Made by a program: the position numbers and the translations under genes | Assembly: GCA_029863605.1 (NCBI GenBank) | Contig: JAOTVB010000011.1 | Location: forward strand, 1-64,000 | From: Myxococcales bacterium | GTDB taxonomy: Bacteria; Myxococcota_A; Polyangia; Polyangiales; Houyiibacteriaceae | Length of the DNA stretch: 64,000 bases | Direction of reading: 5' to 3' | Shown: piece by piece, positions 29,687 through 36,625 of the stretch | Layout of the letters: every line of letters begins with the position of its first letter | Position numbering within the stretch: the stretch's first letter is position 1 | The notes under the pieces: generated by a model | Told to the model about the DNA's origin: nothing | Databases searched by the model: none | The model's input: the letters and a program-made list of their open reading frames with translations, nothing else

Positions 29687-31261
29687 ATGAAGACTATCTT
29701 GCTTTCTTCGCTCTCGACCCTTTGGCTCGGCGCAGCGGTTCTGGTCAGCGGGTGCTTGTCGGCCGATCAGATCGAGCTTGTGATCATCAGCACCGAGCCC
29801 ATCGCTGGCGCTCCCTCACCCCAAACGTTGCGCGTACGGATCTTCGACGCGGCAACCGGCGAACAGGTCGTCGCTCAAACCGCGGATTCCGCTGATGGCC
29901 CACTTGCAGGGCTCAATGCACTCCGCGAAGGCGCGGCATACGTGCTAGCGCTCGAGGCGCTGTTTGGCGCGGGGACTTGCGCCGATGATCGTGCGGTTGG
30001 CATCTCGACCCCGTTCATCCACCAGCGGGAAAGTTACGCGATCCCGATTCAGGTCGGTTGCGCCGACGAGTTTGGGCGTACGTTGTCGCAGCCCAATGTG
30101 GCACGATTGGCGGCCGGGCTCGAGACCGCCGCCGACGGGACGGCGGTGCTCGCTGGAGGCGTTCCTCGGGTCGAGCTGCGAGCGGACGCCTTTCTGGTCG
30201 CCGACGTCGTCGAGGTCATCGAACGCTACGATCCGTTGGCGGGCGGATTCACCGAGTCCGGGACCATGGTCACCGGTCGGGCGTTTCCCGCGCTCCAGGC
30301 CGTGCCCGAGGGCGGGGTCGCGGTCTTCGGTGGCGTGCTCGAGGGGGTTCCGCAATGCGAGGCCACGATCGAGTTGATCGTGGGATCCGCATCGACCGCC
30401 AAGGGCTCGCTCAGCCAACGGCGCTGCTTTCCTGACGCAGCCTTGCTGCCAAACGCCGCCCGCATCGTCGTCGGCGGCAGCGCGGTTCCCCCCGCATTGC
30501 GAGCGACTGACTTCGAGGCCTATGACGTCGAAGCAGAGCAGCAGACCGACAGCGGGATCGAGGGGCTCGTCTTTCGCGAGGCTCCTCGGTTCGTCGCGCT
30601 CGGCAACGGCGAGACGATGCTCGCGATAGGGAGCGTGGACCCGGAGGCGGGAGGCCCGGTGGTCGAGGCGGTTCACTTTGGGGGAGGCTGCCCGGGCGGC
30701 AAAGCTCCGTGCACCTTTCCGATCCCCGCTCCGGGGCTCGACCAACGAGGGCTCACGTCCACTGCGGCGGCCTATGCAGAGTGTCCGACTGGAGGCGGAA
30801 CCGTGTACGTCACAGGAGGCATCACTGGCGGCGGTGACGGCAGCCGCACCCTCGATCAGATTCTGTGCGTCCGGGAGGAAGAGAACGTAATGGATCTCCG
30901 GCTCGTCCAAGCGGGCACGCTACCCGAGCCTCGCGCACGCCACGAAATGGTGGTGGTCCGGGGGCCGTCGCCTCGACTGCTGATCGTGGGGGGTGGCCAA
31001 ACCCCGAGCATCACCAACAATCTCCTCGAAGACGCCCTTCTCGTGCCGATCGACCCTTGCGCGTGCGTCGAAAGCTCGCCACAGGTGCTCGAGCGAATCC
31101 CGCTTCCCTTCACGGGGTCTGCGGTCCTTCATCAGCTGGCGCCGTTGCCTGACGGGAGCGTGCTTTTGGTCGGCGGCGCACGAATTTTCACTGATGGCGA
31201 GGGGCCACCCCGATACGAAGCGCTCGGAGAAGCGGCTCTCTTCGTTCCGGAGATTCAATGA
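29687..31261 (+). CDS. Second Kelch-like beta-propeller lipoprotein
   Basis: 524 residues. A signal peptide ending in the lipobox VSGC is followed by an Ig-like segment (about 25-120, TLRVRIFDAATGEQ). Then come blade-like repeats with GGVPR, VAVFGGVLEG, IVVGGSA, VTGGITGGG, LLIVGGGQT and LLVGGARIF, each preceded by an arginine- or alanine-rich strand. It contains several cysteine pairs, suggesting an oxidising compartment. Its end overlaps the next gene by 4 nt (ATGA). It is the opening gene of the kinase-FHA-sigma54 operon. The architecture matches the lipoprotein at 6298-7668. A role in ligand sensing is inferred. Confidence 0.75.
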   Translation: MKTILLSSLSTLWLGAAVLVSGCLSADQIELVIISTEPIAGAPSPQTLRVRIFDAATGEQVVAQTADSADGPLAGLNALREGAAYVLALEALFGAGTCADDRAVGISTPFIHQRESYAIPIQVGCADEFGRTLSQPNVARLAAGLETAADGTAVLAGGVPRVELRADAFLVADVVEVIERYDPLAGGFTESGTMVTGRAFPALQAVPEGGVAVFGGVLEGVPQCEATIELIVGSASTAKGSLSQRRCFPDAALLPNAARIVVGGSAVPPALRATDFEAYDVEAEQQTDSGIEGLVFREAPRFVALGNGETMLAIGSVDPEAGGPVVEAVHFGGGCPGGKAPCTFPIPAPGLDQRGLTSTAAAYAECPTGGGTVYVTGGITGGGDGSRTLDQILCVREEENVMDLRLVQAGTLPEPRARHEMVVVRGPSPRLLIVGGGQTPSITNNLLEDALLVPIDPCACVESSPQVLERIPLPFTGSAVLHQLAPLPDGSVLLVGGARIFTDGEGPPRYEALGEAALFVPEIQ

Positions 31262-32367
31262 CGCGCATTTCCGCGATCGTGATGGGCGCGGCTCTCGTCG
31301 TGGTCTCTGGCTGCGCGAGCTCCCAAGCGCATCGGGGCAACGAACCCTACGCCCTTCTGCTCCCGAATCACGAATCGGGCCTTGACCCCCTCCCCGACAA
31401 CACGCGCTTGATCGACACCGAACCCCCGCGCAAAGAAACGTCATTCGAAGCGATCGAGGGACGGCTCGCGCAGGCGCGTCGTCTCTACCGGGACCTGGCG
31501 TTCCGCGCATCGTTGGAAGAGCTCATGCGTGCGCAAAAAGAGCTCGAGGCGCGCCTGGGCTCGGATGGGGTCTACGAGCTGCTCGACCGTCTGTTCTTGC
31601 TCCGCGCTCTCGACCAACTGGCTCTTGGAAACGCCGATCAGGCACGCGACGCCCTCAGACAAGCCGCGATTCTTCGTTCAGAGAGAACATCGCTCGACGC
31701 CGCCGAGTTTTCGCCGGACGTACGCGCCGAATACGACGCCGTCTGCGAGACGCTCGAAACCGAAGCGGCGCTCGCCCTCGCAACCGAGACGGAGCCGCCG
31801 GGAGCGAAGCTCACGTTGGATGGCCGCGAAGTCGGGGCCACCCCGGTTCAGGTTCGGCTTCATCGTGGGCGTCACTACCTCGTGTTCCAGGCGCCCAGCC
31901 GCATGGCACAACAGAGGGTCGTCGAAGTGGACGGCAAGCCACCGCCACGATTGCACGTCGAGCTCACGCCACTCAGCCCCGCACAAGTGGCAGGGGAGCT
32001 CGCTGAGCTCGATGCGGCAGAATTCGCCGCCCTCGACAGCATTTCGCGCGTTGTGCTCGTGCCCGCCGCCGATGGTGCCACCCCCGTCCATATCGGAAGC
32101 CAAGGCACCGGCTGGGGAGCCGCGTTGCTCGACCCGAGCAATGGAGATATCCGCCTCACCGCGACCGTGGGTGCTTCGAACCTCAACCTGGCCGTCCCCG
32201 AGCTGGTCTACTCGCTGCGAGATGCCCCCCAGTCCAAGCCGTTGGTCCGTAAGTGGTGGTTTTGGACCGTGATCGGCGTCGCAGTGGTGGCAACCTCCGT
32301 CGGTCTTTATTTTGGAATTCGCGATCAGCCTGAGCCGCAACTGATCATCGCTCGGCAGAACCCTTGA
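31258..32367 (+). CDS. Lipoprotein with helical repeat and PEGA domain
   Basis: 369 residues. Lipobox VSGC is followed by a helical, TPR-like region (about 60-165, ARRLYRDLAFRASLEELMRAQ). A PEGA domain follows (about 180-240; TEPPGAKLTLDGREVGATPV), then a mixed region, and at the carboxyl end one membrane helix (KWWFWTVIGVAVVATSVGLYF). Having both a lipid anchor and a membrane helix implies the protein spans a compartment boundary or is anchored at both ends. Overlaps the preceding gene (ATGA) and lies 39 nt before the kinase. The PEGA domain is shared with the kinase tail, so the two may touch; inference. Confidence 0.78.
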   Translation: MTRISAIVMGAALVVVSGCASSQAHRGNEPYALLLPNHESGLDPLPDNTRLIDTEPPRKETSFEAIEGRLAQARRLYRDLAFRASLEELMRAQKELEARLGSDGVYELLDRLFLLRALDQLALGNADQARDALRQAAILRSERTSLDAAEFSPDVRAEYDAVCETLETEAALALATETEPPGAKLTLDGREVGATPVQVRLHRGRHYLVFQAPSRMAQQRVVEVDGKPPPRLHVELTPLSPAQVAGELAELDAAEFAALDSISRVVLVPAADGATPVHIGSQGTGWGAALLDPSNGDIRLTATVGASNLNLAVPELVYSLRDAPQSKPLVRKWWFWTVIGVAVVATSVGLYFGIRDQPEPQLIIARQNP

Positions 32368-32406: not shown

Positions 32407-34065
32407 GTGGACCGCGGCAAGACCATCTCCCGCTACCGAATCCTGGATCGCATCGCCGAGGGCGGCATGGGCGAGGTCTATCGCGCCAAAATGGAGACGC
32501 TCGGGGGCGCCGAAAAACTGGTCGCGCTCAAAGTCGTCCGCAAGGACCTCGCCGAAAACGACGAGTTCGCTTCGCTTTTCATCGACGAAGCGCGCCTCGC
32601 GATGGGGCTTTCACATGCCAACATCGTGCAGTCTTTCGATGCAGGGCGGATCGACAACCAGTTGTTTCTCGCGATGGAATATGTCGCCGGCTTCCATCTC
32701 GGCGATTTGCTTCAGGCGAGCGAACGCCATCTCGGTCAACCGATTCCGCAGCGCCATTTGATCTACATCGCCGTCGAGGTACTCAAGGGGCTCGACTACG
32801 CGCACCGCCGCGTCGATACCGATGATCGCTCACTCGGTATCGTCCACCGCGACGTCTCGCCCGGGAACGTTTTGATCTCGTTCGAGGGGGAAGTGAAGGT
32901 CGCCGACTTCGGAATCGCCAAGAGCGCGCTTCGTTCGAGGCGAACGACCGCAGGCCGAGTGAAAGGAAAGCTTCCCTACATCGCCCCCGAGCAGCTGCGT
33001 GAATCCGGAGTGGATCGTCGAACGGACCTCTACAGCCTGGGCTCGGTGATGTACGAGGCACTCACCGATCGTTGGCTCGTCGACCCGAACGATACCGAAC
33101 GAGCGATTCAGGACGTTTTGCAAGGGCGTTTCGCAACACCGCGCGAGATCAACGCCGAAATCCCGGAAGCGTTGGAAGCAATCGTCCTCCGAGCGTTGAG
33201 CACCGAGCCAGGAGGCCGATACCCCACCGCGCCCGCTATGCGACAAGAGCTCGAGCAGTACGCTCTGTCCGAAGGTTACTTGTTGTCATCCGCCGACCTC
33301 GCCGACTTCCTCGCGGAGGTGTCATCTGGCACCGACCAGTGGAAAGCCGTTGGCATGCCACGATCCACGGAGCCGCCGCGACCAACTTCGTCGGAACCTG
33401 ATAAAGATGCGGGCCCATTCAACGACTTGCTTGGCGCGCAGCTCCGAAAGCTCGACACCGCCGACACCTATAGTGTGTTCACGACGGATGAGGTCTCGGG
33501 TGCGTTTGATCCGGCGGTGCTCGGACCTTCGACCGGCAATCTGCCGATCCGAAGAGGCCGCCGCTTGGGATGGGTGCTCGCCTTAGGCGTCTTGGTGGCC
33601 GCAGTAGCGGTGTTCTGGCGTGGACGCACCGAGGAGACGCCAATCGAAGCAAGCGCGATCACCGCGGCACGACAGCCGGAGCCGCCCACCGAACCGCCCG
33701 AGGCCGAAGCACCGAAAACCGCAACCGCTCCTTTGGATGAGGCGAACGCGCCGGTCGAACCGACGGAGCCCGCCCCCGTAGAGGAACCGAAGCCACCAAG
33801 GAAGACCAAAAGGCGCGCGGCGGTCGAGGCAACACCCACGCAGATAGAGCCTGCGTTCGTCTCGGTGAACTCCGATCCCTGGTCGTACGTGGTGATCGAC
33901 GGCGAGCGGATCAAAGCCACGCCCCTCCGCGGTCATCGAATCACCCCAGGCCGCCACCAAATCGTTCTCCGAAATCCGGAAGCAGGGCTCGAGCGAAGGT
34001 TTGAAATCGAGGTCAAACCCGGCGAGAGCAAAAGGCTCAGCGTCGACCTTCGAGGAAACCCATGA
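32407..34065 (+). CDS. Transmembrane Ser/Thr kinase with C-terminal PEGA domain
   Basis: 552 residues. The kinase domain (about 8-285) has AEGGMGEVYRAK, VALKVVRK, HRDVSPGNVLIS, VADFGIAKS and an activation segment with several threonines. A linker leads to one membrane helix (LGWVLALGVLVAAVAVFW, about 380-400), then a Pro/Glu/Ala-rich stretch and a PEGA domain at the carboxyl end (about 480-550; VNSDPWSYVVIDGERI). Start is GTG at 32407. It ends with ATGA shared with the FHA-sigma54 gene, a strong hint of coupled translation. The FHA domain of that neighbour is a natural phosphothreonine reader for this kinase; inference from domains. Confidence 0.92.
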   Translation: MDRGKTISRYRILDRIAEGGMGEVYRAKMETLGGAEKLVALKVVRKDLAENDEFASLFIDEARLAMGLSHANIVQSFDAGRIDNQLFLAMEYVAGFHLGDLLQASERHLGQPIPQRHLIYIAVEVLKGLDYAHRRVDTDDRSLGIVHRDVSPGNVLISFEGEVKVADFGIAKSALRSRRTTAGRVKGKLPYIAPEQLRESGVDRRTDLYSLGSVMYEALTDRWLVDPNDTERAIQDVLQGRFATPREINAEIPEALEAIVLRALSTEPGGRYPTAPAMRQELEQYALSEGYLLSSADLADFLAEVSSGTDQWKAVGMPRSTEPPRPTSSEPDKDAGPFNDLLGAQLRKLDTADTYSVFTTDEVSGAFDPAVLGPSTGNLPIRRGRRLGWVLALGVLVAAVAVFWRGRTEETPIEASAITAARQPEPPTEPPEAEAPKTATAPLDEANAPVEPTEPAPVEEPKPPRKTKRRAAVEATPTQIEPAFVSVNSDPWSYVVIDGERIKATPLRGHRITPGRHQIVLRNPEAGLERRFEIEVKPGESKRLSVDLRGNP

Positions 34066-35396
34066 CGACGCCTGCCACCCGAACACTGATGGTTGGGGAC
34101 AAGCCACAGCGCAAGATGCGCCGGTACTGTCTTCAGTCCCCGGGCGGTCAACCGCACGAGTTTCAATCGCAGCTGGTTCGCGTGGGCTCGCGTCCGGGTA
34201 GTGACCTGATGTTGGAGGACAACGCGGTAAGCCGAATCCACTTCGAGATCGTGGCAGACGACATCGGATACCGGATTCGAGACCTCGGTAGTCGCAACGG
34301 GACCTGGGTAGATGGGTATCGGGTGGTCGAGCTGTACTTGCGGTCCGGATGCACGGTTCGGGCGGGGGACAGCGAGCTCCGATTTTCGTTGCTCGACGAA
34401 GAGGTCGACATCCCGGCCACGTCTTCCGATGGCTATGGACCTCTCGTCGGTTCAAGTCTCCCCATGCGAGAGCTCTATGCGATCGTCGACCGCGCAGCCC
34501 CCACCGATATCACCGTTTTGGTCGAAGGGGAGACAGGAACCGGGAAGGAGCTCGTCGCCCGCGCATTTCACGAGCAGAGCACCCGCGCCCAGGGCCCCTT
34601 CGTCGTGCTCGACTGCGGCGCAGTGCCGGCCAACCTCCTGGAAAGCGAAGTCTTCGGACACGAGAAGGGCGCGTTCACAGGTGCGAGTGCACGACATGTG
34701 GGCCTCCTCGAGGAGGCCCACCGCGGCACCCTTTTCATCGACGAGGTTGGCGAGCTTCCGATCGAGCTCCAGCCCAAGCTGTTGCGAGCGCTCGAGCAAC
34801 GCGAGATTCGTCGCCTCGGGGGCCGAGATACGATCTCGCTCGACATCCGAATCGTTGCCGCCACAAACCGCGACCTTGCCGTCGAAGTGAACCGGGGCGC
34901 GTTTCGAGAGGATCTCTTCTACCGCCTCGCCGTCGTGCACCTCACCCTACCGCCACTGCGCGAAAGAAGAGACGACATTCGAATGCTTGCCGAGCATTTC
35001 GTGCGAAAGGCACTCAAAGACGATTCTCTTCGAGCCGCGGAAGTCTTGGCGGGGATCGATGACGAGAACTGGAAACGACTCGAATCGCATCCATGGCCAG
35101 GCAACGTTCGGCAGCTTCGAAACGTGATCGAGCGGACCCTCGCGTTGAGCGACCCATCGTTGGTCGCGTTCGACCTTCCAGGCTCGGAGGCCTCCGCTTC
35201 GAAACCCTCGATGAATGTCCCCGAAGTCGACCTGGACCGCCCCTTCAGCGAGCAAAAAGCCTATGCCGTTGCCGGGTTCGAACGGGCCTATCTGGAGGGA
35301 CAACTCGCGCGGCACGGAGGCAACTTCTCCCGGGCGGCAGTGGCGTCGGGCATCGACCGCATGTACTTCAAACGGCTCCTCAAAAAATACCGCTGA
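34062..35396 (+). CDS. FHA-domain sigma54-dependent enhancer-binding protein
   Basis: 444 residues. The FHA domain (about 38-105; VGSRPGSDLMLED, SRIHFEI, SRNGTWVDG) replaces the usual receiver domain. The AAA+ activator domain follows: Walker A GETGTGKE (155-162), the sigma54-contact loop GAFTGA (203-208), Walker B GTLFIDEVGEL, and the ATNRDL sensor. The carboxyl end is a Fis-type HTH (RAAVASGIDRMYFKRLLKKY). Such proteins remodel sigma54-RNA polymerase after binding upstream sites. Overlaps the kinase gene by 4 nt. A sigma54 promoter and paired direct repeats follow just downstream, making gene 35552-36625 a likely target. Confidence 0.93.
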   Translation: MTTPATRTLMVGDKPQRKMRRYCLQSPGGQPHEFQSQLVRVGSRPGSDLMLEDNAVSRIHFEIVADDIGYRIRDLGSRNGTWVDGYRVVELYLRSGCTVRAGDSELRFSLLDEEVDIPATSSDGYGPLVGSSLPMRELYAIVDRAAPTDITVLVEGETGTGKELVARAFHEQSTRAQGPFVVLDCGAVPANLLESEVFGHEKGAFTGASARHVGLLEEAHRGTLFIDEVGELPIELQPKLLRALEQREIRRLGGRDTISLDIRIVAATNRDLAVEVNRGAFREDLFYRLAVVHLTLPPLRERRDDIRMLAEHFVRKALKDDSLRAAEVLAGIDDENWKRLESHPWPGNVRQLRNVIERTLALSDPSLVAFDLPGSEASASKPSMNVPEVDLDRPFSEQKAYAVAGFERAYLEGQLARHGGNFSRAAVASGIDRMYFKRLLKKYR

Positions 35397-35410
35397 CCGT
35401 CAACGGTGAG

Positions 35411-35461
35411 ACTGCTGATACTCAGCCACTAGCTCTACCGACGAGACGGCAGGTACTCAGC
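35411..35461 (+). promoter_or_regulatory. Paired direct repeats, candidate enhancer sites
   Basis: Two 16-nt repeats at 35411-35426 and 35446-35461 match at 13 of 16 positions and share TACTCAGC. The first contains the inverted repeat GCTGA-TAC-TCAGC. They lie about 50-100 bp upstream of the sigma54 promoter, a usual place for enhancer-binding protein sites. The centres are 35 bp apart. Binding by the FHA-sigma54 activator encoded just upstream is inferred. Confidence 0.5.
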
Positions 35462-35508: not shown

Positions 35509-35525
35509 TTGGCACAGCTCGTGCT
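35509..35525 (+). promoter_or_regulatory. sigma54 (-24/-12) promoter of the repeat lipoprotein gene
   Basis: TTGGCACAGCTCGTGCT has the -24 GG (35511-35512) and the -12 GC (35523-35524) exactly 10 nt apart, and a full TTGGCAC left half. Transcription would begin about 35536, just before AGGAGG and the ATG at 35552. It is the only sigma54 match I found in the intergenic regions I checked. Confidence 0.7.
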
Positions 35526-35551
35526 TCGTCTCCGAGGCAGGAGGTTCCCAG

Positions 35552-36625
35552 ATGTACAAGCACACCAAGACTTTCTTAGCGGCGGGCCTGTTGCTCGCTT
35601 TTGGCTGCGGAGATGCCACCACCGGCGAAGGCGCGGAAATAGCGGATGCCCTCGAGCTGGAAAACGGTGGTCTCACGATGGACGACGAGGCGCCCGCCTT
35701 TGGCGAGCCCGAGGCCTTCGACGACATCGGTGAGTACGAAGCAGTCGAAGACGAAATGGACCAAGACCCCGAAGTCGCAGACATGCGCGAACGACCCGAC
35801 GCAGTGCAGGTCAATCTGATCGTCGAGTGGGGTCAGATTCCAGGGAATCCGGAAAACGAAACGCCTAGAAACTGGAGCGGCGTTTTTCACGTGAATCGCG
35901 GCGCCATGGTTGTCCGACGAGTCATCAAGTTCGAAGAACGAACCGATCGCCTACTCCCCCGCCCCGACCGACAACATGTCCCGTTCACCTCGGTCACCCT
36001 GCCGCACTACGACGGGATGATCTTGACCATCATCGACCCCGAGCCCCAAAGCGACGAGCCGCTGATCTTCTCCTATGCGAGCCCGCTCCCGCGTGACGCG
36101 GACCCGTCCACCGATGATGCGACCCGTAACGAGACGGACACGAGGCCCGACCAACCTCAAACGATCGTACGCGTGCCCGTGCGCGACCTCGTCGAAGGTC
36201 GCGTCGAGCTCCTGATCGACGATGCTGGCAACCGAATGGTAGCCGCGGCGGTCGCTCGACCGCTCGACATTTGCGAGCGGGGTTTCTTGGCCGGTCGCTG
36301 GCACAAAGTCGAAGATGGCCGCGGGCGCTTCATTGGTCGCGTCGTGCACGACGATGGCGAGCCCGCCGGTCACATCCGCGGCATCTACGGAAAACGTGAG
36401 AACGGAGAACAGGTCTTCTTCGGTAAGTTCATCAACCTCGAAGGCCAGTTCAAAGGAATCTTTGGCGGCAACTACGGCGAAGGTCACTTCCGGGGCCGCT
36501 GGCTCCATCGCTCAGGCGAGCACGGCGTGCTCGGCGGCGTCTACAGGGAAGGCATTCCAGGCCCGGAGACCGGCGGCCATTTCGTAGGTCGCTGGGCAGA
36601 GACGAGCTGCAACCTCGATCTCTGA
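35552..36625 (+). CDS. Lipoprotein with C-terminal glycine-aromatic repeats
   Basis: 357 residues. The signal peptide ends in lipobox FGC. A highly acidic region follows (about 20-90, rich in D and E), then a beta-type domain. Residues 243-357 consist of short units of the form G-x-hydrophobic-x-G-R/K-W or Y (GFLAGRW, GRFIGRV, GHIRGIYG, GQFKGIFG, GHFRGRW, GGHFVGRW). These resemble MORN-like beta hairpins but I do not assign a family. AGGAGG precedes the ATG. The longer open frame upstream covers the activator gene and is rejected. It is the probable output gene of the sigma54 circuit. Confidence 0.8.
   Translation: MYKHTKTFLAAGLLLAFGCGDATTGEGAEIADALELENGGLTMDDEAPAFGEPEAFDDIGEYEAVEDEMDQDPEVADMRERPDAVQVNLIVEWGQIPGNPENETPRNWSGVFHVNRGAMVVRRVIKFEERTDRLLPRPDRQHVPFTSVTLPHYDGMILTIIDPEPQSDEPLIFSYASPLPRDADPSTDDATRNETDTRPDQPQTIVRVPVRDLVEGRVELLIDDAGNRMVAAAVARPLDICERGFLAGRWHKVEDGRGRFIGRVVHDDGEPAGHIRGIYGKRENGEQVFFGKFINLEGQFKGIFGGNYGEGHFRGRWLHRSGEHGVLGGVYREGIPGPETGGHFVGRWAETSCNLDL

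Follow-up and report, generated by a model that had tools for sequence, protein, structure and literature searches.

A candidate two-site enhancer linking an FHA-type sigma54 activator to the promoter of a predicted lipoprotein gene

Tandem enhancers of sigma54 promoters are typified by the NtrC arrangement, as in the NtrC sites of glnA. Sigma54 activators that carry an FHA domain form a known myxobacterial class, and myxobacteria possess many of them; to our knowledge, a DNA site or target is known for few. For the activator Nla28 of Myxococcus xanthus, the half-site CT(C/G)CG(C/G)AG has been described (PMC7910581), and inverted repeats of the form yGTCA-N6-TGACr have been reported for the DVU2894/FlrA type, a one-component activator of the flagellar cascade (PMC4641369).

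Here we describe a locus, within a 64,000-nucleotide stretch of DNA (the window), in which paired repeats lie between the gene for an FHA-type activator and a predicted lipoprotein gene. We propose that this activator would act from two palindromic dyads, as a two-site enhancer, on the sigma54 promoter of the lipoprotein gene, a reading to which sequence comparison leads us to assign a probability of roughly 0.87.

The activator, its kinase and the putative target gene

The activator gene (positions 34062 to 35396, forward strand) encodes a protein with the domain order FHA, AAA+ (GAFTGA) and Fis-type HTH, as judged from its translation and from Pfam matches to FHA, Sigma54_activat and HTH_8, and carries the recognition helix GIDRMYFKRLLKK. 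The AAA+ domain (PF00158, 2.2e-67) contains GETGTGKE, KGAFTGA and GTLFIDEV, which places the protein among the sigma54 enhancer-binding proteins, and the N-terminal FHA domain (PF00498, 3.6e-14) assigns it to the FHA type. The match to the C-terminal Fis-type HTH (PF02954, 7.1e-05) lies barely above the curated cut-off. Immediately upstream is a gene for a Ser/Thr protein kinase (32407 to 34065, forward strand; Pfam Pkinase, 9.9e-37) with a predicted transmembrane segment and, by eye, a C-terminal PEGA-like stretch. Wherever the contig of an ortholog extends far enough, the kinase gene is next to that of the activator, and the linkage is also found in G025, G068, G094 and G109; on the basis of this gene linkage, the kinase is presumed to be the signal source for the FHA activator. 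Further upstream (29687 to 32367) are two genes, one encoding an exported protein of 524 aa that looks kelch-like by eye and has no Pfam match, the other a PEGA-domain protein. Their order relative to the kinase and activator genes is preserved in L003, L004 and L007, and these two genes may be part of the same module.

Downstream of the activator, the -24/-12 elements of a predicted sigma54 promoter, TGGCACAGCTCGTGC, occupy positions 35510 to 35524 on the forward strand, with a predicted transcription start near 35536. The GG and GC doublets have the TGGCAC-N6-TGC spacing, TGGCAC and TGC are invariant in the seven orthologous loci described below, and the window promoter has an A at the G position of the consensus TGGCACG. 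This is the only TGGCAC-N6-TGC site in the whole window, where approximately 0.5 would be expected by chance, and the genome contains a single rpoN. It is followed by a Shine-Dalgarno sequence, AGGAGG (35539 to 35544, forward strand), whose context AGGAGGTT is kept in all seven orthologs, and by the putative target gene (35552 to 36625, forward strand), which encodes a predicted secreted lipoprotein of 357 aa and has an ortholog behind the promoter in all seven genomes. Pfam and NCBIfam identified no known domain in this lipoprotein, and its structure prediction was poor (mean pLDDT 39). In L156 (G002:C65:7055-7416), from the same genus and with no activator ortholog, the lipoprotein gene is present in broken pieces that are 72-85% identical and lie in different frames, apparently having decayed once the module was lost.

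Two conserved dyads upstream of the promoter

The sequence-only reading of this DNA had singled out two 16-nt direct repeats, ACTGCTGATACTCAGC (35411 to 35426) and ACGGCAGGTACTCAGC (35446 to 35461), as candidate enhancers preceding a well-spaced sigma54 promoter. The repeats are real: they are identical at 13 of 16 positions, have TACTCAGC in common, and lie 48-99 bp from TGGC-N8-TGC within the 155-bp intergenic gap between the activator stop codon (35394 to 35396) and the lipoprotein start. By themselves the 16-mers are only mildly unusual, since 2.6% of dinucleotide-preserving shuffles of this gap contain a 13/16 match of that length, while neither two copies of TACTCAGC nor two of YGAGAC-N8-CTCR were found in any of 3000 such shuffles. 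The same reading had noted an inverted repeat in the left copy as typical of enhancer-binding protein sites. That repeat, GCTGA-TAC-TCAGC (GCTGATACTCAGC), is present in the window and absent from all six orthologs; it was rejected as the binding unit and is best regarded as a chance feature of the window's genome.

Comparison with orthologous loci points to a different unit, namely two conserved 18-bp palindromic dyads of which the repeats form the right halves. These candidate activator sites, both on the forward strand, are a distal dyad, TGAGACTGCTGATACTCA (35407 to 35424), and a proximal dyad, CGAGACGGCAGGTACTCA (35442 to 35459); each starts 4 bp to the left of its 16-mer, which comprises the right half plus flank. 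A scan of 84,980 species, with one genome per species, yielded six activator orthologs of 80-93% identity (G017, G005, G013, G006, G010 and G011), which together with the window make seven loci. Each of the aligned loci contains exactly two dyads with the consensus YGAGAC-N6-NNCTCR (TGAGAC-N6-NNCTCA), whose starts are 34-35 bp apart and the second of which starts 68-69 bp before the -24 TGGC. Thus, both sites and their promoter distances are kept in 7/7 loci when the conservation check proposed with the original repeats is carried out. Invariant alignment positions are concentrated in the half-sites (20/24) and the promoter (11/16), with 0/12 in the dyad middles and 8/77 in the remainder (Fisher p 3e-12 for the half-sites, uncorrected for shared ancestry).

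That the repeats reflect no more than a chance similarity of two short stretches would fit the 2.6% shuffle frequency and the lack of conservation of the inner inverted repeat. The half-sites, however, are selectively conserved in the seven orthologs and recur elsewhere, and this conservation refutes the chance reading, to which we accord a negligible probability. The dyad centres lie at approximately -85 and -120 relative to the predicted transcription start, within the 80-150 bp given as typical for sigma54 activator sites (PMC7910581). An enhancer would be expected to show conserved dyads suitably spaced ahead of its promoter, and the original enhancer proposal appears right in essence, having misjudged the unit as the 16-mers rather than the 18-bp dyads.

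A genome search for further copies of the motif beside sigma54 promoters had also been proposed. The strict dyad pair occurs once in the 4.2 Mb of this genome, at this locus, which suggests a dedicated target. Single dyads number 45, versus 17 for a reversed-pattern control, and a looser genome scan yielded little above its control. The next-best dyad near a TTGGCAC (C28:205932) lies inside a coding region and was rejected.

Operator and recognition helix in other gene arrangements

When 115 genomes of the order were searched for the strict pair, the hits comprised the seven loci, two from another family (G025 and G059) and a few pairs that lack a sigma54 element. The lipoprotein gene of G025 (54% identical) is convergent with the genes for the activator (62% identical) and its kinase. 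Upstream of this lipoprotein gene are two perfect dyads, TGAGACCCAGGCGTCTCG and CGAGACCCCGCCGTCTCA, spaced 35 bp apart and lying 69 bp ahead of TGGC; the distal site of the window is matched in both genomes, and G059 has the same perfect dyad pair. Since the G025 dyads are far from the end of the convergent activator gene, the dyads would belong to the promoter and not to the activator 3' end.

Besides the seven orthologous loci, the sites recur in three further arrangements, with activators that have the same recognition helix. In L009, L010 and L012, whose activators are approximately 50% identical overall and have the helix GIDRMYFKRLLRK in common, two YGAG-N9-CTCR dyads 21 bp apart lie just past the activator stop codon, followed by TGGC-N8-TGC and then by a gene whose product, approximately 1240 aa long, is an unrelated exported protein. 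G038 (helix LDRMYFKRMLQK), found through a helix search, carries TGAGTCATTTCGTCTCA and TGAGACGCGCTTGTCTCA at a spacing of 21 bp; these precede TGGCACGTCGATTGC and a convergent gene that encodes a different small lipoprotein. In G500 (helix LDRMHFKRLLQK), the activator is divergent from an exported-protein gene, and TGAGACCATCACACTCA and TGAGTCTGGGCGACTCA are 22 bp apart and 59 bp before the promoter. Across the helix class, then, the activator is upstream of, convergent to or divergent from its target, and the targets include unrelated exported proteins. Between lineages, the gap within a dyad is N9 or N10, the two dyads are 21-22 or 34-35 bp apart, and the distance to the promoter varies (59-136 bp).

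These arrangements bear on whether the repeats could instead be a transcription terminator or RNA structure ending the activator operon. The first dyad abuts the activator stop codon, and in five orthologs begins on it, and the dyads are able to form hairpins. Against this, the plus strand has no T-run, folding of the window RNA is no better than that of shuffles (G038 folds well, as a tandem perfect dyad must), and the dyads are away from the activator 3' end in G025, G038 and G500. The convergent and divergent arrangements largely refute the terminator reading, which we consider very improbable. A terminator-like hairpin with a T-run does span the activator gene end on the reverse strand (35389 to 35407), where it would be relevant to antisense transcription only.

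The recognition helix reads G[IL]DRMYFKRLLKK in the window protein and its orthologs, and GMDRMYFKRMLKK in G025. We defined a scan rule of two YGAG-N9/10-CTCR dyads starting 18-40 bp apart, with TGGC-N8-TGC 40-170 bp from the second. All 13 DRM[YH]FKR loci pass this rule, and 14/14 with the later G500, a figure that overstates the evidence because most of these loci had served to define the motif. Among activator loci with other helices, 1/120 pass (980 kb), the sole exception being a GC-rich repeat. A search of 96 genomes for the helix class after the rule had been fixed found one new member, G500, which passes and is the only strictly prospective test. Of 183 genomes spanning the whole order, ten encode activators of the helix class, and all ten have the pair; in G397, a relative with the helix DRMNFKR, the dyad pair is absent. 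The activator tree is compatible with one origin of the helix class or more than one. L011, a record titled Bifidobacterium breve with an activator 49% identical, groups in this tree with proteobacterial-labelled MAG rows and is probably mislabelled.

A set of lipoprotein homologs provides a contrast. Those in G068, G094 and G109 have kinase and activator genes nearby, the activator helix being RVYLYKLL or RVYVYKLL, and no TGAG dyads precede the homolog gene in G030, G068, G094, G109, G027 or G074. By eye, other palindromic or split upstream elements are visible in three genomes where the activator is of another helix type or none was found on the contig, namely TGTAGGGTCGACCCTACG in G030 (L200) and a split GTAGGG...CCCTAC in G068 (L197) and G109 (L199). 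At least G030 and G109 also have a recognisable promoter of the sigma54 type. The different elements suggest operator turnover at an otherwise similar promoter. These elements, judged by eye alone, fit an operator that changes with the helix.

Comparison of these loci, on a motif partly defined on them, indicates that the sites go with the activator's recognition helix and not with any fixed gene order. We lean towards a helix-to-operator rule for this FHA-sigma54 branch, in which DRM[YH]FKR corresponds to tandem YGAG-N9/10-CTCR and the cassette is constant, with the exported target, its position and its orientation exchanged between lineages. The feature of greatest interest here is this pairing of helix with operator while the targets change. 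Alternatively, the dyads could be operators of the lipoprotein promoter that serve a different regulator, either a repressor or a further activator, and the FHA activator would then work elsewhere; such a dyad is usable by any dimeric HTH protein. We regard this as unlikely. In four gene arrangements, and with unrelated targets, the dyads go with the recognition helix of the neighbouring activator; a sigma54 promoter also needs an activator, and the adjacent one is the only regulator identified that is common to all these loci.

Proposed mechanism and relation to known systems

For control by the adjacent activator, we infer that its dimers would bind the two dyads (YGAG-N10-CTCR, best half-site TGAGAC) and be activated through the FHA domain and the neighbouring Ser/Thr kinase. 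The active dimers would form an AAA+ ring whose GAFTGA loop contacts sigma54-RNA polymerase at TGGCACAGCTCGTGC, opening the promoter of the lipoprotein gene, which would probably be the single dedicated target. The locus would then constitute a local cassette in which a Ser/Thr kinase and an FHA activator act through two dimer sites on one sigma54 promoter, for one exported protein.

For one activator branch, with the helix as predictor, comparison alone thereby provides an operator, a promoter and a target that are open to testing. What began as a loosely defined enhancer candidate is narrowed to a short fragment and a single protein, both amenable to direct experiment. The comparison also suggests a route to target assignment for other kinase-linked activators. 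In the literature searched, comprising open-licence papers only, we found no published DNA site for the DRM[YH]FKR helix class.

As with NtrC, the locus has two dimer-sized dyads approximately 80-130 bp upstream of a -24/-12 promoter and an activator with a Fis-type HTH; it differs in its half-site, TGAGAC, and in having an FHA input domain instead of a receiver. The Nla28 system, which also involves a sigma54 activator from a myxobacterium, likewise has repeated sites in tandem ahead of -24/-12 elements, whereas the half-site here is TGAG[A/T]C, occurring as an inverted pair, twice. The DVU2894/FlrA-type repeats are likewise short inverted half-sites with a fixed gap that were predicted for sigma54 activators through comparative genomics, but their sequence differs and their dyad is shorter. 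The protein has the FHA, AAA+ and Fis HTH order and the linked Ser/Thr kinase gene of the myxobacterial FHA-sigma54 class, and is unlike that class in that its operator and target promoter can be assigned from sequence. Collectively, the architecture appears to be a standard sigma54 enhancer of the ordinary bacterial kind, unusually well supported by cross-genome comparison.
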